Below the pieces are notes generated by a model. It did no database searches. It had not been told where the DNA came from and worked only from the letters and a program-made list of their open reading frames with translations. Both the position numbers and the translations under genes were made by a program. Shown here one piece after another: positions 8,732-35,278 of a stretch of DNA of 36,377 nucleotides. Each line of letters starts with the position of its first letter. Positions within the stretch are counted from its first letter, which is position 1. Source of the DNA: Chloroflexota bacterium (GTDB lineage: Bacteria; Chloroflexota; Dehalococcoidia; SM23-28-2; RBG-16-64-32); assembly GCA_005882715.1 (NCBI GenBank), contig VBEI01000100.1, positions 1 to 36,377 on the forward strand, read 5' to 3'.

Positions 8732-8911
8732 CGCAATGTGTCATTCTGAGCGAAATGAAATTCTTCGAGGCATGCGCGTAATTCTGCGAAGGAATCCTCT
8801 ATGACGTGGGAGCGAGCGCCCAGACATGCTAGATCCGTGCTAGGGAACCCACCTTGAGTGGACGGGAATCGCGAGCAAGAGGCGAAGGCCTTTTCCAAGC
8901 GTCGTCAGACC

Positions 8912-14345: not shown

Positions 14346-16406
14346 CTATCGTTGCTCGCTAGGCTGTGTCTCCTGCGGTTTGCACCCGGGTGGCGCGAAC
14401 GGATTGGCCGCTGCCCAGCGGCCGACCGGACACACGTCGATTCCGCTTCCGGCACACCGCTTTCTCGCCGTGATGTCCGGCTCCGAGAGGGGCCCGCTCA
14501 CCTTAACGATTGGCAGGCGCGCCAGTCCACCTGCGACCAGGCGGTCCAGTTGCGCATTATCCCGGATGCGATACAGACTGCCGCAGCGCATCACGAAAGG
14601 CGTGGTGCCACTTACCTCCTGGAGCAGCGTCCCCTCTTGCGGCCCCTCTGGAATGGCGCCCAGCGCGCCCGGCGGGACTACTGTCACCTCCGCCGAAAGC
14701 GACCCCGCCGCTATCAACGCCTCTCTCCGTCCCGCGTCCGTAAGCGCAAATTTCATCCCGGAGGCGATCTGCCACTCCGCGTTGCTTGCCAGCTCCTGCA
14801 CGCGTGCGCCGTCCCGGGGCGCCGTAGGCAGCGCCGCCAGCGTGCCATCGGGAACGATGTTCAGCCGCCATTCCAGCGCACTCTTGCGCACGAGCTGGTT
14901 TCTCACCATAGCGTCAGGGAGCGGAAACTTGGCTCCGGCCGCCACCTGCCACTCCGCGCTGCTGCTTAGCTCCCGCACCCGTGCGCCGTCATGTGGCGTG
15001 GTCGGTATCTGTGCCAGGGAGCCCAACGGTACTATGTACGGCGTCGCTTCGAGAGCACCCGCGCCGATCAACGCGTCCCTGACTTCCGGCGATGGCAAAG
15101 GGAATCTGGCGCCGGCCGTGATCTGCCATTCCGTCGCGCTGCCCAGCTCCATCAGCTGCGTGCCCTCCCTCGGCACGTTGGGTATCTGGCTCAGCCCGCC
15201 CGGCGCTACTGTGTGGACCTGTTGGAACCCCAGCCCCATCGCGTATAGAGCGTCCGGGCTGGGTATTGCGAATTTCGCACCGGCGTAGACCGCGTAAACA
15301 GTCGGAGAACCGGCCTCCTGCAGAAGAGTCCCGTCCCACGGAACGTCGGCCACCGTCTGGAGCATCCCGGCTCCCACGATCCAGTAGTCCCCAGGACGTC
15401 GGCCCATGGCTGCGAGCGCGTCAGGGCTCGGGATATGGAACTTCGCCCCGCTATACAGCACGTAGAGCGCTGGACTCGACTCTTCCTTGAGGATGCAGCC
15501 GTCCCACGGACACGGCGACCATACCCAGTACGAAGGCCAGGCCGAGGCTACGGCCTGAGTCGGTTCCCATATGTTCCAGGCGGCCTCCCAGACCTCTGGC
15601 CGCACCACGCCCCGCCGCCAGATACTAACTCTCGAGGAACCCGCGGATCGAGCGGCATCCATCGCTGCCAGGAACTTATCTCCGCTTGTATCCCCCTCGA
15701 GCATCGGGATGTACTCAAGCTGCCTCCCCGGGGCCAGCCAGCTCAAATCTGCGTGCGCCTGGCTCACGCAACCACTGGGATCAGCCCAGATTCCCTGGTC
15801 CGCATACAGCTCCCAGTAGCACATCGGCAGCGCCGCGTTCGCGGTCGACAGCCATTTCCAGGTCCCCGAGTCCTGCCATGTCCACGAGCGGGGATCGTAT
15901 ATCACGCCGAGGTTTGCCTCTGGCCGCTCCGCTCTCAGGCGCCACCAGAACTGTTCAGCCAGGTAGTTGCAGTCCCAGTAACAAAAGCCGTCGAACGGTT
16001 CCACGTCCGCGTAAAGCGCCTTGACTCCCGTGTCCAGCACCGCTTCCGCCATCGCCACTTGCCTCTCGACGTCAACTCCCTTAGGAACGAACCACGCGAC
16101 CACCTCGATACCCTTCGCGTTGTAGTCGGCAATCAGACGCCTCAGGCTCGCTGGCCCCGTGACGGCCTTGGAGTTACCGTCGTAAGTGGACATCCAGTCG
16201 GTCCCATCGTGCGTCTTTATGTGCACCGTTCCCACGGGCAGGAGAGTATCGTCGCCCTCTACGCCCGGGTAGTCTTGTGCGAACTGCCAGACGACGGTCT
16301 CGATCTCTATCGCCTTGGCCGGTCGCGGAGTGAAGTCCACGCCGAAATGCTGGCCGCCAACGGCCAGCATTGTCAGCAACGCTAATGCAGCTGCGAATCG
16401 GCGCAT
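14346..16406 (-). CDS. Secreted protein: N-terminal TIM-barrel/glycosidase-like domain plus six ~57-aa C-terminal repeats
   Basis: Signal peptide MRRFAAALALLTMLAVGG; barrel-like IEVVAWFVPKG...VKALYADVEPFDGFCYW; repeats of P-x-x-G-x-x-(L/V)-x-E-...-A-G-A-K-F-x-(L/I)-P. Confidence 0.75.
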   Translation of the reverse strand: MRRFAAALALLTMLAVGGQHFGVDFTPRPAKAIEIETVVWQFAQDYPGVEGDDTLLPVGTVHIKTHDGTDWMSTYDGNSKAVTGPASLRRLIADYNAKGIEVVAWFVPKGVDVERQVAMAEAVLDTGVKALYADVEPFDGFCYWDCNYLAEQFWWRLRAERPEANLGVIYDPRSWTWQDSGTWKWLSTANAALPMCYWELYADQGIWADPSGCVSQAHADLSWLAPGRQLEYIPMLEGDTSGDKFLAAMDAARSAGSSRVSIWRRGVVRPEVWEAAWNIWEPTQAVASAWPSYWVWSPCPWDGCILKEESSPALYVLYSGAKFHIPSPDALAAMGRRPGDYWIVGAGMLQTVADVPWDGTLLQEAGSPTVYAVYAGAKFAIPSPDALYAMGLGFQQVHTVAPGGLSQIPNVPREGTQLMELGSATEWQITAGARFPLPSPEVRDALIGAGALEATPYIVPLGSLAQIPTTPHDGARVRELSSSAEWQVAAGAKFPLPDAMVRNQLVRKSALEWRLNIVPDGTLAALPTAPRDGARVQELASNAEWQIASGMKFALTDAGRREALIAAGSLSAEVTVVPPGALGAIPEGPQEGTLLQEVSGTTPFVMRCGSLYRIRDNAQLDRLVAGGLARLPIVKVSGPLSEPDITARKRCAGSGIDVCPVGRWAAANPFAPPGCKPQETQPSEQR
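14469..15512 (-). repeat. Six tandem ~57-aa (about 170-bp) protein repeats within the secreted protein
   Basis: Repeat starts: CPWDGCILKEESS, PWDGTLLQEAGSP, PREGTQLMELGSA, PHDGARVRELSSS, PRDGARVQELASN, PQEGTLLQEVSGT. Confidence 0.9.
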
Positions 16407-21857: not shown

Positions 21858-22355
21858 TCATTCCCCTTCCTCCCCCCGCGCCAGAACTATCGCGCCGAGC
21901 AGCGCCACCATCAGCACCAGCGAAGCCACCTCAAACGGCACTGCCCAGGTCGTGAAGAGATCGTTCCCGATCTGCTGGATCGAGATGACGTTGATCTTGT
22001 TCGTGTCGCCTGGCCACTCGGTACTCACCATCGAGAAGATCGACACGACCATAAATGCGCCGGCGGCCAACGCGGCAAAGGGCCGCTGCGGACCGTCAAG
22101 CGCCGCCGGCATGTCCCGCACGCGCGTCAGCATCATCGCGAATAGCACCAGAATCGTGACTGCGCCGCCGTAAATCAGCACCTGCACGATTGCGAGAAAC
22201 TCGGCCGAGAGGAGGATGAAGATACCGGCGACTGAGAGCAGCGAGAGAATCAGAAACAGCGCGGAGTGTACGACATTGCGGGCTGTGACTACGCCGATTG
22301 CACCGACGACGGTGGGAACGGCGACAACGTAGAAGATGACTTCTTCGTACGTCAT
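21858..22355 (-). CDS. nuoJ: NADH-quinone oxidoreductase subunit J
   Basis: VTARNVVHSALFLILSLLSVAGIFILLSAEFLAIVQVLIYGGAVTILVLFAMML. Confidence 0.96.
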   Translation of the reverse strand: MTYEEVIFYVVAVPTVVGAIGVVTARNVVHSALFLILSLLSVAGIFILLSAEFLAIVQVLIYGGAVTILVLFAMMLTRVRDMPAALDGPQRPFAALAAGAFMVVSIFSMVSTEWPGDTNKINVISIQQIGNDLFTTWAVPFEVASLVLMVALLGAIVLARGEEGE

Positions 22356-23248
22356 GCCGCGGGCTCGACCGTGACCGTATCGCCGCGCGAGATACGACCG
22401 CCCGTTGTAACCGTCACCGCCACGCCGACCGCGGGTAGTTCCTTGCCGACGGCGGGCATGAGCACCCGGTGGTGATCTGCGACCGTGCGCAGAATCGCGG
22501 GGTCGTTCGGCAGGTCTCCCTGCGGAAGCGTCGTCATGACGCAGCGCACCATCGTATCGATCACCTGGAGGCGCACGCCGTTGCCAGCTTTCAGTGGCTT
22601 GCCGATCCAGGCGTCTTCGACAAAGCCGCCCTCGTCGCCCTCGGCCTCGATCACCAGATTCGGTCGGAATCGCCGGGCCTCCCAGCGTCCTTCCGGGTAA
22701 ATCTCGCTAAGCTTCGCAAGCGTGCTAGTGGTGAGCAAATGGAGCGGCGTGTAATCGAAGAATGTCTGCGGTGCGCCCAGGCCCAACGGGAGAGTCGTAA
22801 GGCTGTCGCCCTCCGTGTTCTCGACCGCCCGCCCGATTGGAGTCTGGAAATCCAACCAGTAGTGTTCGAAGATAGCCGGCTTCGCCTCCGGCTGCGTCAG
22901 GCTAACTTCGCGTCCTAGGAACCGCGACAGGACAGACGTCGCTGCTGTCTCGTCGCTGCGCAGCCCTGTGCCGTCCGGCAACTTGATAAGCACCGGGGGT
23001 AGGGGCTGGCCGAGGGCAGGGGGTTCAACATACTCCGCGCGACATTCGAACATTCGCGCCCACTTGCGCGGGTTCTTGGCGCTGACGGTCCGCCCGGTCT
23101 CGTTGTCGACGAGCGCGTAGCCCCGATCGCCGACAATGCCGCGCTCGGTTATGTCCGCGACCTCCAGCTCCTCCCCCATCATCGACTTGACGGGGTAGCG
23201 ATGGAGCGACGCTACAGTTCCTGAGCTGACGGCGGTTGGGCTCGGCAC
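22352..23248 (-). CDS. MOSC domain-containing protein (MOSC N-terminal beta-barrel)
   Basis: VASLHRYPVKSMMGEELEVADITERGIVGDRGYALVD...; YWLDFQTPIG; RRFRPNLVIE; RCVMTT. ORF extends to 23488 but that part overlaps nuoI and looks non-coding; GTG at 23248 is a plausible start. Stop overlaps nuoJ ATG. Confidence 0.85.
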   Translation of the reverse strand: MPSPTAVSSGTVASLHRYPVKSMMGEELEVADITERGIVGDRGYALVDNETGRTVSAKNPRKWARMFECRAEYVEPPALGQPLPPVLIKLPDGTGLRSDETAATSVLSRFLGREVSLTQPEAKPAIFEHYWLDFQTPIGRAVENTEGDSLTTLPLGLGAPQTFFDYTPLHLLTTSTLAKLSEIYPEGRWEARRFRPNLVIEAEGDEGGFVEDAWIGKPLKAGNGVRLQVIDTMVRCVMTTLPQGDLPNDPAILRTVADHHRVLMPAVGKELPAVGVAVTVTTGGRISRGDTVTVEPAA

Positions 23249-23264
23249 GGCTTCTATGGCCCTG

Positions 23265-23960
23265 CTACCCCTCGCCGCCTTCCTTCTCCAGCCCCTCCGC
23301 CGCTTCCGGCGTTCCCTGCTCCGCGCTCGCCTTGCTCTCCGGCGGAGCCTCCGCCGTCGGGTCAGGCGTCGGCGCCGACAACGACGGCTTGTCGGGCGAT
23401 GTCCCGTGATGCTTCTCCAACGACGCCGCCTCCGCGGCGGCCGCCGCTTCCTCTTCGTCCATCCTCGGCGCCCACCCAGAGTGCGCAACGCCCATCGGTT
23501 CGCGGAACGGGGTCTCGAGCTCTCCCGTCTTCGACTGGCGAAGCAAGGCCGGCAGGTCCATCACCAGGTCTTGCCGGTCATAGCGCGACAACTCGACCCC
23601 CTGCCACGTGTTGTTCATCACGATCGCGTCAAAGTTACAGACTTCAACGCAGATGTCGCATCGCATACAGCGCGCGTAGTCGATGTAAAACTTATCGACG
23701 ATCTTCTTGCGCTTGCTTTTGCCGGCCGCGAAATTCGGATTGTCCTTCATCGTTACCGTCATGCAATCGACGGGACAGTAGCGCGCGCAGACCTGACAGC
23801 CGGTGCAAAACGGCTCGTTGATATCGAAGTCCCACAGCAAGACAGGAAGCCCGCGTGATCGGTGCGGCAGCGTCTTCTTCTCCGTGGGGTACTGCACAGT
23901 CACCGGCTTCCGCAGAGCCGCCTTCACCGTGGTTTGGATCGCTTTCAGTACCCCTAGCAT
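23265..23960 (-). CDS. nuoI: NADH-quinone oxidoreductase subunit I with acidic C-terminal extension
   Basis: Two 4Fe-4S motifs CTGCQVCARYCP and CMRCDICVEVC; long A/E/P-rich tail after ...GWAPRMDEEEAAAA. Confidence 0.95.
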   Translation of the reverse strand: MLGVLKAIQTTVKAALRKPVTVQYPTEKKTLPHRSRGLPVLLWDFDINEPFCTGCQVCARYCPVDCMTVTMKDNPNFAAGKSKRKKIVDKFYIDYARCMRCDICVEVCNFDAIVMNNTWQGVELSRYDRQDLVMDLPALLRQSKTGELETPFREPMGVAHSGWAPRMDEEEAAAAAEAASLEKHHGTSPDKPSLSAPTPDPTAEAPPESKASAEQGTPEAAEGLEKEGGEG

Positions 23961-25259: not shown

Positions 25260-26396
25260 CTATCGGTCCACCTCGCAGAGCACGATATCGATGGACCCCA
25301 GGATGATGATCACGTCCGACACGAAGTTTCCCACCGACATCGCCCGCAGTGCCGACAGGTTCGAGAAGGACGCGCCGCGAACTTTGTGCCGCCACGGCTT
25401 GTCGCTCCCCTGCGACACCAAGTACACGCCGTACTCGCCGCGCGGACTTTCGACGCGCATGTAAACCTCGCCGGCCGGCACTCGCAGCACGCGCTTGAGG
25501 CCTTCGGCCATTATCGGCCCTTCCGGCATCGTCTCCAGAGCCTGCCTGACGATCCAGGCCGACTGATGCATCTCTTCCAGCCGGACCACCAGCCTGTCGT
25601 ACACGTCCCCCTGCTTGCCGGTTGGGATGTCGAATTGGAAGCGGTCGTAAATCGAGTAAGGTTCCGCGCGGCGTATATCGTGCTTAAGGCCTGTCGCCCG
25701 CAACATCGGGCCGGATAGTCCCCAATTGATCCCGTCCTCCACGGTGACAGGGCTGAGTCCACGGCACCGGGCCAACACAACTTCGTTCTCCATCATTAGT
25801 CCGTCGAGTTGCTCCACGCCTCGCTCCACGCTGTCTAGCACCTGCGAGCAGCGTTGGCGGAAGTTGTCCGGCAAGTCCCACGCCACGCCACCGGGCCTGA
25901 AGTAGTTGTACATCATCCGCTCGCCGGTTATCTCCTCGAAAAAGTCCTGGATCGTCTCCCTGTCCCTGAACGCGTACATGAAGGACGTCCCGAACAGCCC
26001 GATGTCAGTGCCGAACGCTCCGAAGAACATCAAATGGCTGGCGATCCGGTTCATCTCCGCGAGCACGACCCGTATGTACTCGGCGCGCTCCGGCGGTTTG
26101 ATACCGGCCAGCCTCTCCACCGCCTCCACGTAGCAATGCTCAGTGTTGAACTGCGCCAGGTAGTCCGTCCGGTCGTGATAGCCGATCACCTGCCGGTAAT
26201 CGCAGTTCTCGGGCAGCTTCTCGTTTCCCCTGTGCATATAGCCGATCACGGGGTCAACATCGACGACTAGCTCGCCGTCGATCGTCAATACCATGCGGAA
26301 AACACCGTGCGTCGCCGGGTGCTGCGGCCCCACATTGACATTGATGTCAATCGTCTCGAGATCGCTCTCGTGCGGCGGTCGTGTCTCTATCGCCAT
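25260..26396 (-). CDS. nuoD: NADH-quinone oxidoreductase subunit D
   Basis: NVGPQHPATHGVFRMVLTIDGE, GYMHRGNEKLPE, SFMYAFRDRE, RVESPRGEYGVYLVS, VIIILGSIDIVLCEVDR. Confidence 0.98.
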   Translation of the reverse strand: MAIETRPPHESDLETIDINVNVGPQHPATHGVFRMVLTIDGELVVDVDPVIGYMHRGNEKLPENCDYRQVIGYHDRTDYLAQFNTEHCYVEAVERLAGIKPPERAEYIRVVLAEMNRIASHLMFFGAFGTDIGLFGTSFMYAFRDRETIQDFFEEITGERMMYNYFRPGGVAWDLPDNFRQRCSQVLDSVERGVEQLDGLMMENEVVLARCRGLSPVTVEDGINWGLSGPMLRATGLKHDIRRAEPYSIYDRFQFDIPTGKQGDVYDRLVVRLEEMHQSAWIVRQALETMPEGPIMAEGLKRVLRVPAGEVYMRVESPRGEYGVYLVSQGSDKPWRHKVRGASFSNLSALRAMSVGNFVSDVIIILGSIDIVLCEVDR

Positions 26397-26407
26397 AACG
26401 GCCCCCC

Positions 26408-26467
26408 GTCATTCTGAGCGACGACCACACCTGAAAGCGAAACACCATATCTGCGCGAAGGAATCCG
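26408..26467. repeat. Dispersed TCATTCTGAGCG...GCGAAGGAATCC repeat
   Basis: Ends match the copies at 8739 and 10979. Confidence 0.7.
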
Positions 26468-26520: not shown

Positions 26521-27654
26521 TCACTTCTGCTCCTCCGAGAACTTCTTCAGCGCCTCCGCCACGATTTGCCGTTCTTCTTCCGGCGACACGCCCCTCGCCC
26601 GCGCTTCGTTGCGGGTCTTCGTTATCAGCGCGGCCTTCTGCTGAGCCAGCTGTATCTTCGCCGCTCGATCCATGGGCGCAGCGGGCGTGGCGGGAGCTGC
26701 CGCTGCCTGCGCAGGCGCCGCCTGGGGCGCCGCGGCGGCCTGTTCCTGTTCCTCCGAGAACTTCTTCAGCGCCTCCGCCACAATCTGTCGCTCTTCTTCA
26801 GGCGAAACGCCTCTCGCCCGTGCCTCATTGCGTGTCTTCGTGATCAGAGCCGCCTTCTGCTGCGCGAGCTGTATTTTGGCCGCGCGCTCATCGACCGACT
26901 TCGCCGGTGCCGTTGGCGCCGCCGCCTGCCCCGCCGCGTGCTCCTCCTCGAATTTCTTGATCGCCTCCTGCACGGCGGCCTTCTCGTCCTCCGGCGAAAG
27001 CCCCTTCGCCCGCGCGTCGTCCCGAGCCTTCTTCATAATCGCGGCCTTTTGCTGGGCCATCTGGATCTTCAGCGCCTTCTCATCTACGGGCGCAGCCACG
27101 CCGGTGGCCGCTGCCATCTGCGCCTTCGCCTCTTCGATCGTCTTCAGGTAGTCTTCTTGCCACTCCTCGATGTCCGCGAGCGGGTGGCTCTTGCGCATGA
27201 TGTAGTATCCGAGACCCTCCTCCGTCAGCAGCGGCCGCGGGTCGGGATGCCCATCGAAGACTAGGCCGAATAGCTCCTGGGTCTCGCGCTCATGCCAGTT
27301 CGCGGTCTCCCAGAGGTGGCTCACGGACGGAATGTGGGCATCGCTTACGGGGCAGCGCACCTTGATCGCAATCGAATGGCCGTGCTTAAAGGAATGGAGG
27401 TGGTATACGGTCTCGAGGTCCGTTAGCCAGTCAACACCCGAAAGGCAACGCAGGTAATCGAGCGCGAGTCGCTCGTCGTTCTTCGCCGTCTCCATGACTC
27501 GCGCGAAATCCTCGCGGCGAACTGAAACCACCTCGTCGATTGGCGACTGCCCGATCTCCAGCGCGAGCCCCCGTAGCGCTGACTGGAATAGGCGCGCGAC
27601 CGGCCCCGGCTCTATCGGTTCTGCGGGGGCCGCCGTTGGCGCTTCGTGCACCAT
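26521..27654 (-). CDS. nuoC: NADH-quinone oxidoreductase subunit C with three-repeat C-terminal extension
   Basis: CLSGVDWLTDLETVYHLHSFKHGH...ETANWHERETQELFGLVFDGHPDPRPLLT; then three KIQxAQQKAA...KKFxEE modules. Likely start MVHEAPT at 27654; the ORF extension to 27705 runs into the dispersed repeat. Confidence 0.95.
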   Translation of the reverse strand: MVHEAPTAAPAEPIEPGPVARLFQSALRGLALEIGQSPIDEVVSVRREDFARVMETAKNDERLALDYLRCLSGVDWLTDLETVYHLHSFKHGHSIAIKVRCPVSDAHIPSVSHLWETANWHERETQELFGLVFDGHPDPRPLLTEEGLGYYIMRKSHPLADIEEWQEDYLKTIEEAKAQMAAATGVAAPVDEKALKIQMAQQKAAIMKKARDDARAKGLSPEDEKAAVQEAIKKFEEEHAAGQAAAPTAPAKSVDERAAKIQLAQQKAALITKTRNEARARGVSPEEERQIVAEALKKFSEEQEQAAAAPQAAPAQAAAAPATPAAPMDRAAKIQLAQQKAALITKTRNEARARGVSPEEERQIVAEALKKFSEEQK

Positions 27655-27683
27655 CAGTCCGCGCCGATCTTCCCCCGCTCGTT

Positions 27684-27744
27684 TGTCATTCTGAGCGCCG
27701 GCCACATTCGATCGCTGGCGAACGCATCTCCGGGAAGGAATCCG
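27684..27744. repeat. Dispersed TGTCATTCTGAGCG...GAAGGAATCC repeat between nuoB and nuoC
   Basis: Same ends as the other copies. Confidence 0.7.
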
Positions 27745-27829: not shown

Positions 27830-28447
27830 TCATCCAGTGCCGATCTTCCCTCGCTCTTCCATGATCTTCTTCTGCAACGCCAGGAACGCATCCATCAGCG
27901 CCTCTGGCCGAGGTGGACATCCCGGAACGTACACATCGACGGGAATGATCTTGTCGACACCCTGCAGCACCCGGTCGTAACGAGTGTAGGGACCGCCGTT
28001 CGTTGCACACGCTCCCATCGAAATTACCCACTTCGGGCTCGGCATCTGCTCGTACAGCAGCTTGACCGCCGGCGCCATCTTCTTTGTCACCGTCCCCGAC
28101 ACGATCATCACGTCCGACTGCCTCGGCGACGGCCAGGGGACGATGCCGAAGCGGTCGAGGTCATGGCGCGCCATGAACGTCGATATCATCTCGATCGCGC
28201 AGCAGGCCAGCCCGAACGTAAGCGGCCATAGAGACGACTTCCGCCCCCAGGCGATCAGCCAGTCCGCCGGCATCTGCATGATCCCCGGCAGGATCTGCCT
28301 GTACGTAGCCCTCCCCTGCGAGGGGTTAGGGGGCGACCGCTCGAGGGACTTGACCTCGTGCCGGATCTGGGCCGACACCGCGTCGCTTATCGCCTCGCGC
28401 GGGTCGTCCCTCACTTCGTAGACTTCGATGATGGGCTTCTCAGGCAT
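27830..28447 (-). CDS. nuoB: NADH-quinone oxidoreductase subunit B
   Basis: [81 protein letters not shown]. Confidence 0.98.
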
Positions 28448-32509: not shown

Positions 32510-32721
32510 CCGCTCCCATGTCATTCTGAGCACTGCCAGGGCGGAAAACCTGTTGGCGCTCAAAATCCTATTAGCCGGTGCCACTCACGGATCTAGAGCG
32601 AAGAATCTCGGCGTCCGGCTTCCTGCATCAAGCTTCTTCTCAACCACAACGCATCATCGCCCGTCTCCGCTCTCTGACTTCCTACCTCTTACCTCTTACT
32701 TCCCGTACGATTAGCCCCGCC

Positions 32722-33918
32722 ATGCGCGAAGCAGCCTCCCTCTCCGACCTCTGCGTCCTCGATCTTTCGACGGGCATCGCCGGCGCTTTCTGCACGAAAC
32801 TCTTCGCCGAATTCGGCGCCGACGTCATCACCCTCGAGCCGCCGTCAGGGCACCCGCTCCGCCGCAACGGCCCCTTCGCTGATGACCGGCCCCATCCCGA
32901 GACCGGCGCCCTATGGCTCTATCTCGGCACGAACAAGCGAAGCGCTACGCTGAACATCGAGACCCCCAGCGGCCTTCGCCTACTCAGCAGCGTGGTCGAA
33001 GAGGCCAACATCATCGTGGAGGACTTCGCGCCCGGAAAGATCGACGGACTCGGCCTGAGTTTCAACGCTTTACGTCGCATCAAACGCCGCATCGTACTCG
33101 TCTCGATTACGCCCTTCGGCCAGACCGGCCCCCGAGCCGGCTGGCGAGCTACAAACATCACCTCCTTCGCCTCTGGCGGCCAAATGTCCCTCACGGGCGA
33201 TCCCGACCGCGAGCCGCTTGTCGCCGGCGGCTACCAGGCGGAATACCAGGCGGGCCTTCAGGCGTTCGCCGCCGCTGCCGTCGCCGCCTTCAACGCCGAC
33301 GCCCTAGAAGTGCCCCAGCACGTCGATATCTCGGCCCAGGAATGCATGGCGTCAGCGCTCGAGCTTTACCTGCCGTGGTGGGCCTACCTCAAGCGCGATA
33401 TCTCGAAGCGGCGCGGCAACGTCCTTTCCGCCACGGTCGGCGTCTTTCCAGCAAATGAAGGTTATCTGGGCTTGCACATCATGCCCCGCAACTGGCCCCG
33501 GTTCGCGAAGGCGATCGGCAGTCCGGAGCTCATCGAAGATGAGCGCTTCAAGGACGCCCGGTCCCGCCTCCAGAACAACGACGAGCTCGAAGCCATCGTC
33601 TACGAATGGGCGAGCCGCCAGGACCCGCGGGAGGCCTATCAGGCCGCCGGCGCCGCCCGCGCTCCGATCGCCTTCGTCCACACCATCCGCGATCTGTTCG
33701 AGTCGGAGCAACTCCGCTCTCGCGACTTCTTCCAGCGACTCGAACATCCCGTGTCCGGCGAAATCACGCTCCCCGGCCCGCCCTTCCGCATGTCGGAAGT
33801 CCAATCCCGCCTCGGCCGTGTTCCGCTCCTCGGTGAACACAACGAACAGCTCTACTGCGAGGAAATGGGCCTCTCCCGCCGCGATCTGGCCCGCCTCCGG
33901 GCCGCCGAAGTCATATGA
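32722..33918 (+). CDS. CaiB/BaiF class III CoA-transferase family protein (Glu at expected catalytic Asp)
   Basis: LCVLDLSTGIAGAFCTKLFAEFGADVITLEPPSGHPLRRNGPF, LGTNKRSATLNIETPSG, IIVEDFAPGKIDGLGL. ATG at 32722. Confidence 0.92.
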   Translation: MREAASLSDLCVLDLSTGIAGAFCTKLFAEFGADVITLEPPSGHPLRRNGPFADDRPHPETGALWLYLGTNKRSATLNIETPSGLRLLSSVVEEANIIVEDFAPGKIDGLGLSFNALRRIKRRIVLVSITPFGQTGPRAGWRATNITSFASGGQMSLTGDPDREPLVAGGYQAEYQAGLQAFAAAAVAAFNADALEVPQHVDISAQECMASALELYLPWWAYLKRDISKRRGNVLSATVGVFPANEGYLGLHIMPRNWPRFAKAIGSPELIEDERFKDARSRLQNNDELEAIVYEWASRQDPREAYQAAGAARAPIAFVHTIRDLFESEQLRSRDFFQRLEHPVSGEITLPGPPFRMSEVQSRLGRVPLLGEHNEQLYCEEMGLSRRDLARLRAAEVI

Positions 33919-34033
33919 TGACGGTCCAAATCCTACGCTTAGCCTGCTTCTTACCTCCCACCTCTTACTTCTTACCTCTTACCCCCTACCTCCTTCCTCC
34001 TTCCTTCCCGACGGGGCGGGGCTAGGCGGAGCC

Positions 34034-35278
34034 ATGTACCGCCTTCCCCTCCACGGCATCCGCGTTCTCGACCTGACAATGGCCTGGGCGGGCCCCTACG
34101 CTACTCGCCTGCTCGCCGACATGGGCGCCGAGGTCATCAAAATCGAGAGCATCGACAATTGGGATGTGCTCCGCGCCCTCACCGGCCAGCCGCCCGATAC
34201 CGAACGCGTCTGGGACAAGTCCCCTTACTTCAACCAGACAAACCGCAACAAGTACGGCTGCTCGCTCGATCTCTCGAAACCGCGAGGGCGCGAACTATTT
34301 CTCTGCCTGGCCGCCCAGTCCGATGTCGTGATCGAGAACTTCCGCGCGGAGGTCATGGACAACCTGAACCTCGGCTACGACATGCTTTGCGGCGTGAACG
34401 ACCGCCTGATCATGGTCTCCATGCCCGGCCACGGTAAGACCGGGCCCGAACGCGACTTCGTCACTTACGGCACCAACGTCGAGCAGCTTGCCGGGCTCTG
34501 TCATCTCACCGGATACGAGGGCGGCCCGCCGCACAAGACAGGCATCAGCTACGGCGATCCGATCGCCGGGATCTCCGCCGCCGGCGCCATTGCGCTCGCG
34601 CTGTGGGCCCGCCGCCGCACCGGGCGTGGCCAGTACATCGAACTCGCCCAGCGCGAGAACCTCATCAGCCTGATCGGCGAAGTCGTCGTTGCTTTCTCAT
34701 TGAACCACCGAGAGCCCTCGCGACGAGGCAACCGCCACTCCTCCATGGCGCCGCACGGCTGCTACCCATGCTCCGGCGAGGACGAGTGGATCACGATCGC
34801 CTGCGAGAACGACGCTCAATTCGCAGCGCTGTGCTCAGCGCTCGATCAACCCGGCCTCGCCCGCGATATCCGCTTCGCCGATGTCGTCAGCCGCTATCGC
34901 AATCAGGACGAACTTGACGAGATCGTCGCCGCCTGGACGGCAGGCCGGACGAAGGAAGACGCAGCCGAATCCCTGCAGTCCGCTGGCGTGTCAGCGATGC
35001 CCGTTCTCAGCGTCCCCGAGGTGTTCGCCGACCAGCGTCTGCGCTACCGGGGCTTCTTCGAGCCCGTCTCTCACCCCATCGCCGGCGGTTGGGAGATCGA
35101 CGGCCCGCACTGGCGCATGAGCGAGTCACCGGCTCATATCCGCCTTCCCGCCCCAACCTTCTCCGAGCACAACCGCTACGTCTTTGGCGAGCTCCTCGGC
35201 CTATCCGACGACGAGATCGGGCAGCTCGACGCCGACGGGATCACCGGTTCGGCGCCCAACCGGGCGGTTCATGACTAG
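34034..35278 (+). CDS. CaiB/BaiF class III CoA-transferase
   Basis: HGIRVLDLTMAWAGPYATRLLADMGAEVIKIES, NRNKYGCSLDLSKPRGRELFLCLAAQSDVVIENFRAEVMDNLNLGYD, ISYGDPIAGISAAGAI. ATG at 34034. Confidence 0.95.
   Translation: MYRLPLHGIRVLDLTMAWAGPYATRLLADMGAEVIKIESIDNWDVLRALTGQPPDTERVWDKSPYFNQTNRNKYGCSLDLSKPRGRELFLCLAAQSDVVIENFRAEVMDNLNLGYDMLCGVNDRLIMVSMPGHGKTGPERDFVTYGTNVEQLAGLCHLTGYEGGPPHKTGISYGDPIAGISAAGAIALALWARRRTGRGQYIELAQRENLISLIGEVVVAFSLNHREPSRRGNRHSSMAPHGCYPCSGEDEWITIACENDAQFAALCSALDQPGLARDIRFADVVSRYRNQDELDEIVAAWTAGRTKEDAAESLQSAGVSAMPVLSVPEVFADQRLRYRGFFEPVSHPIAGGWEIDGPHWRMSESPAHIRLPAPTFSEHNRYVFGELLGLSDDEIGQLDADGITGSAPNRAVHD

Follow-up and report, generated by a model that had tools for sequence, protein, structure and literature searches.

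The NuoC subunit of complex I encoded in the window (the whole stretch of DNA analysed here, 36,377 nucleotides of the Chloroflexota contig VBEI01000100.1) ends in three copies of a module of approximately 48 amino acids, joined by Ala/Pro linkers and specified by a minus-strand open reading frame (26521–27705). This module is a previously undescribed, lineage-restricted domain on a known complex. A search for a common electron donor of complex I without the NADH module failed (PMC11238625), and a conserved domain of about 48 amino acids, borne only by NuoC in a complex of this kind, opens the donor question to direct testing.

A repeated helical module on NuoC

The open reading frame, the three C-terminal modules, their Ala/Pro linkers and their positions are as the initial annotation had described them (Table 1). 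The ATG at 27654 is the most likely start of the gene, because the N-terminus that begins there is common to relatives; an alternative upstream GTG (27705) falls within sequence that separates nuoB from nuoC here and is absent from congeneric genomes.

Table 1. Position of nuoC, its neighbours and the parts of its product, in window coordinates
Feature	Coordinates	Strand	Basis and remarks
nuoD, same operon as nuoC	25260..26396	(-)	Pfam PF00346
Module 3, MDRAAKIQLAQQ...SEEQK	26524..26673	(-)	Profile match, E 5.0e-27; codon comparison with module 2
Ala/Pro linker between modules 2 and 3, 22 codons	26674..26739	(-)	Sequence between profile matches; length varies between genera
Module 2, DERAAKIQLAQQ...SEEQEQ	26740..26892	(-)	Profile match, E 5.1e-27
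Ala/Pro linker between modules 1 and 2, 13 codons	26893..26931	(-)	Sequence between profile matches; varies between genera
Module 1, DEKALKIQMAQQ...EEEHAA	26932..27084	(-)	Profile match, E 5.0e-26
NuoC core domain (Complex1_30kDa)	27175..27528	(-)	Pfam match converted to window coordinates
nuoC, 377 aa	26521..27654	(-)	ATG at 27654; Pfam PF00329, E 1.4e-33
nuoB, same operon as nuoC	27830..28447	(-)	Pfam PF01058

The genes around nuoC follow the order valS-nuoA-B-C-D-H-I-(MOSC)-J-K-L-M-N, which is kept in relatives with the exception of the MOSC gene. All of NuoABCDHIJKLMN are encoded in this one cluster (NuoK being assigned by position and by similarity to relatives) and NuoEFG are absent from the operon, which identifies the product as an 11-subunit complex I. 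A genome-wide search for NuoF in this genome, which is 74% complete, returned a single NuoF-type match, on a contig outside the window (C16).

Each module is predicted to form a helical hairpin composed of a basic helix, a G-[LVM]-S turn and an acidic helix. AlphaFold2 modelled a single module with a pLDDT of 93.2, placing helices at residues 2–26 and 31–50. In a model of full-length NuoC made with 18 sequences, the helix pairs of the tail reached a pLDDT of about 80–91 and the linkers were of low confidence; the core was only partly well modelled, the pTM was 0.33 and the arrangement of the modules is not readable from this model. A fold search with the full model returned NuoC structures. 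On average helix 1 carries a charge of +5.1, helix 2 of -2.9 and the whole module of about +1.5. Eight residues (A10, Q11, K13, R21, A24, R25, G28 and A41) are invariant across 23 module copies.

We did not recover the module as a known domain. None of the 23 modules scored above the gathering threshold of any Pfam family (best E 0.0028, RRM_3), and there was no convincing match among PDB sequences. The nearest solved shapes that Foldseek returned for the module model were hairpins of the cwf21 type (PDB 2e62 and 9l5s; TM 0.78–0.82), with E values above 1 that are not significant. Like the module, the cwf21-type domain is a helical hairpin of about 50 amino acids; however, the cwf21 family was not among the module's Pfam matches at E values up to 1, and a hairpin is a simple shape that can arise independently.

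Several other features of the operon and the window were noted. The MOSC-domain gene lies within the nuo operon, between nuoI and nuoJ (22352–23488); it is also present there in genome G001 and was not found at this position in G006 or G017. Its true start probably lies further downstream than called, since the gene as called shares about 220 bases with nuoI. NuoI itself (23265–23960) has a C-terminal extension of about 60 amino acids rich in Ala, Glu and Pro, so that NuoC is not the only subunit here to bear an unusual tail. A short interspersed element that starts with CATTCTGAGCG flanks nuoC, with one copy in the space towards nuoD (26410–26420) and another in the space towards nuoB (27687–27697), and the motif also occurs at 8742, 9103, 10982, 11182 and 32522, giving seven occurrences in the window against 0.93 expected with one mismatch allowed; the form CATTCTGAGCGNNG occurs 15 times in the genome. 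In the congener G002 the spacing between nuoB and nuoC is just a few bases. Downstream of nuoN, a protein of 686 amino acids (14346–16406) without a match in Pfam or NCBIfam has a recurring motif, of the form LQE-GS-TVYAVYAGAKFAIPSPDAL, in its second half. Finally, two adjacent genes for class III CoA-transferases (32578–35278) were called as open reading frames that overlap by about 460 bases, and one of the two starts is therefore probably misplaced.

Selection and probable conversion among module copies

Modules 2 and 3 share 47 identical residues (RAAKIQ...SEEQ) encoded with 20 codon differences, every one of them synonymous, in agreement with the earlier count of about 20 synonymous differences and no replacements. 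Were these mutations neutral, the chance that all 20 would be synonymous is about 1e-12 to 2e-11, and by the NG86 method, applied to 44 of the 47 shared codons, dN is 0 and dS about 1.08. Assembly error is an unlikely source of the two copies, given the 20 differing sites and the presence of three modules in two separate congeneric assemblies.

Selection and gene conversion followed by synonymous drift had both been put forward to explain this identity, and our data speak for a part played by each. Within each of the two congeneric genomes, copies 2 and 3 are set apart by amino-acid replacements, at 8 of 44 codons in one and at 9 in the other, and in a nucleotide tree, on which bootstrap values for the relevant branches are only moderate, the window's copy 3 falls with copy 2 of the genus, apart from copy 3 of the congeners. 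Because the congeners' copies differ and the tree groups the sequences in this way, it is most likely that copy 3 in the lineage of the window was overwritten by copy 2 at about the time when the species separated, the synonymous changes accruing afterwards. Judged from these sequences, the identity of copies 2 and 3 is thus recent and particular to that lineage. Over the last 12 codons the two copies differ at a single one, a hint of a later and shorter conversion of that segment. Copies 2 and 3 also cluster within genomes or genera in the nucleotide tree for G004, G008 and genus g5.

Purifying selection on the modules is borne out by comparisons between genomes. Pooled over each of four comparisons within genera, dN/dS was 0.01–0.20 for the modules, far below 1 and similar to the 0.05–0.18 obtained for the NuoC core; between genera, the modules had lower values than the core. 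For the linkers dN/dS was higher, at 0.16–0.26 in the window's genus and, for linker 1-2, 0.47 between genera, values that come from small counts, with low values in some other genera and with between-genus dS near saturation. The modules are constrained about as strongly as the NuoC core, and the linkers usually less. The module array offers a clear natural example of repeat copies that are homogenised by conversion and yet remain under purifying selection.

A lineage-restricted domain

A profile built from the 23 modules, searched against 393 genomes of the class, matched 21 of them, with one to three copies each. Carriers comprise all 15 genomes of the window's family, five from two sister families of the order and one, G091, from another family; in other words, the module is present in 20 of the 25 genomes of the order and in a single class genome beyond it. 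Wherever the gene could be read whole, the matches sit in NuoC. In three genomes (G014, G018 and G011) they fall on fragments at contig ends that are not tied to a whole nuoC gene, and the fragments read from G014 and G018 resemble NuoC tail sequence. The single copy in G091 resembles a first module at its beginning and a last module at its end, and it lies near a contig end, so its number may possibly reflect assembly collapse.

Across the phylum, searching 300 genomes gave just four weak, partial matches (E 0.001–0.01), and the two that we read (L117 and L118) are unrelated enzymes; 30 NuoC genes sampled across the phylum have no such tail, and plasmid records gave no match. The module is present in relatives, nor did the profile searches of class and phylum genomes find it spread over unrelated proteins, and we rejected the idea of a general low-complexity repeat, there being no match in an unrelated protein among the 393 class genomes.

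The initial annotation had also suggested, from the missing NADH module, that the modules may dock an alternative electron donor or partner, a proposal that is plausible but fared less well. Loss of NuoEFG does not imply presence of the module, because another family of the same order, f3 (G016, locus L039), has the same operon without NuoEFG and a NuoC that lacks the module. The NuoC proteins sampled in the phylum lack it too. In the f2 genomes of this order the 11-subunit type of complex is apparently absent.

In its gene set and its lack of an NADH module in the operon, the window's complex resembles the 11-subunit complex I (NuoABCDHIJKLMN) of Dehalococcoides and Desulfitobacterium (PMC6005880, PMC11238625); it differs from these in the repeated hairpin tail of NuoC, of which we found no description in the papers searched. 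Long additions to NuoC are known elsewhere: the NCBIfam family NF005832 (430 positions, with the core at 310–423) has a long extra region beside the core, although there the extension is N-terminal. A parallel comes from a member of another family of the class, G055, whose NuoC (L024:1450–2583) ends in two charged modules of about 53 amino acids, 70% identical to each other, on Ala/Pro linkers. No NuoE or NuoF was found beside the nuo operon of G055, and none of the other NuoC proteins sampled from the class had tail repeats of its type. We rejected these repeats as homologues of the module (hhalign probability 1%, no detectable homology). NuoC looks from these cases like a recurrent site for lineage-specific extensions, a pattern that is no more than suggestive.

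Possible roles of the tail and the electron donor

From the invariant polar residues of a hairpin that would fold by itself and is repeated on flexible linkers, we infer a protein-binding arm, and we tentatively favour the reading that the NuoC tail is a multivalent arm for docking a putative partner. Each hairpin would act as an independent binding unit, its conserved polar residues gripping the same surface of the partner, and the flexible linkers would raise the partner's local concentration near the point of electron entry, which would lie exposed where the NuoEFG arm is missing. The partner would most likely be a soluble redox protein, for example a detached NuoE-NuoF-like flavoprotein pair or a ferredoxin, its identity being a guess. 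In favour of a docking arm are the confidently predicted hairpin with its invariant polar residues, the 0 versus 20 codon changes and low dN/dS, the repetition on variable Ala/Pro linkers, the confinement of the module to the NuoC of the 11-subunit complex, with no tail on the second NuoC of the genome, the proposals made in PMC11238625 and PMC5736913, and the occurrence in the genome of a NuoE-NuoF-like pair without nuoG. Against it stand the operon without NuoEFG and without the module in the same order, and a copy number that ranges from one to three.

Other explanations can be set against the same observations. The hairpins might instead associate with one another or with the tails on adjacent complexes, the basic helix of one lying against the acidic helix of another, and so cluster complex I or link it into supercomplexes; the opposite charges of the two helices, the several copies per chain and the exchange of copies by conversion would all suit such pairing, but a single copy seems to be enough in G091 (subject to its position near a contig end), and we consider self-association unlikely. 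Similarly doubtful is a structural cap or assembly aid, whereby the tail would fold onto NuoB, C, D and I and cover or stabilise the surface that NuoG would occupy, or would recruit an assembly factor. NuoC-type domains play a key part in determining how the core complex assembles (PMC7050243), and the tail is conserved and specific to the NuoC of the 11-subunit complex; yet repeats on long, variable linkers are more in keeping with a flexible arm than with a fixed cap, and the sister family represented by G016/L039 manages without the tail.

The basic helix 1 raises the thought that the module binds nucleic acid, membrane lipid or another acidic polymer, which we regard as very improbable, since helix 2 is acidic, the module as a whole is only slightly positive and there is no convincing match to a known family of nucleic-acid-binding proteins. 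Least likely of all is a low-complexity tail without specific function that drifts by duplication. Its composition, rich in Ala, Glu and Lys, and the unrelated repeated tail on the NuoC of G055 might be cited for this, but it is strongly disfavoured by the selection data, namely the absence of replacements among the 20 changes between copies 2 and 3 and module dN/dS values well below 1, and by the eight columns that are invariant in 23 copies from several genera.

A more specific form of the docking-arm reading, to which we attach little confidence, holds that the tail may be a dedicated multivalent platform for the electron donor of the 11-subunit complex, possibly the detached NuoE-NuoF pair, by which this lineage would have reattached an electron input to a complex I without its NADH arm. 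If this were true, G055 would have solved the same problem independently with its unrelated repeated tail. According to one proposal, the 11-subunit complex serves several donors as a docking platform, and the search for a donor in common was without success (PMC11238625). It has also been suggested that this complex may couple with another whose genes lie elsewhere in the genome (PMC5736913). In another Chloroflexi genome the NADH module has been noted to have an operon of its own (PMC5736913). The detached NuoE-NuoF pair is one candidate partner of the tail. Genes for NuoF-like proteins are found all through the class whether or not the module is there too, and their co-occurrence with it therefore gives no support to a partnership.

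The NuoE-NuoF-like pair of the window's genome, without an adjacent nuoG, lies on contig C16 (L042:9398–11862), flanked by a glycosyltransferase/NHL-repeat gene and a PAS-LuxR regulator, and a similar pair is present in G001 and apparently in G017. The NuoF-like protein on C16 has cysteine-containing stretches at both ends, outside its Pfam domains. The same genome contains a second complex I cluster (A, C, D, H, J, K, L, M and N) on contig C72 (L043:3128–12729), and this second NuoC has no tail. We dropped the notion of a second complex I without NuoB and NuoI, as a second nuoI and, in congeners, a second nuoB lie on contigs other than that of the second cluster.
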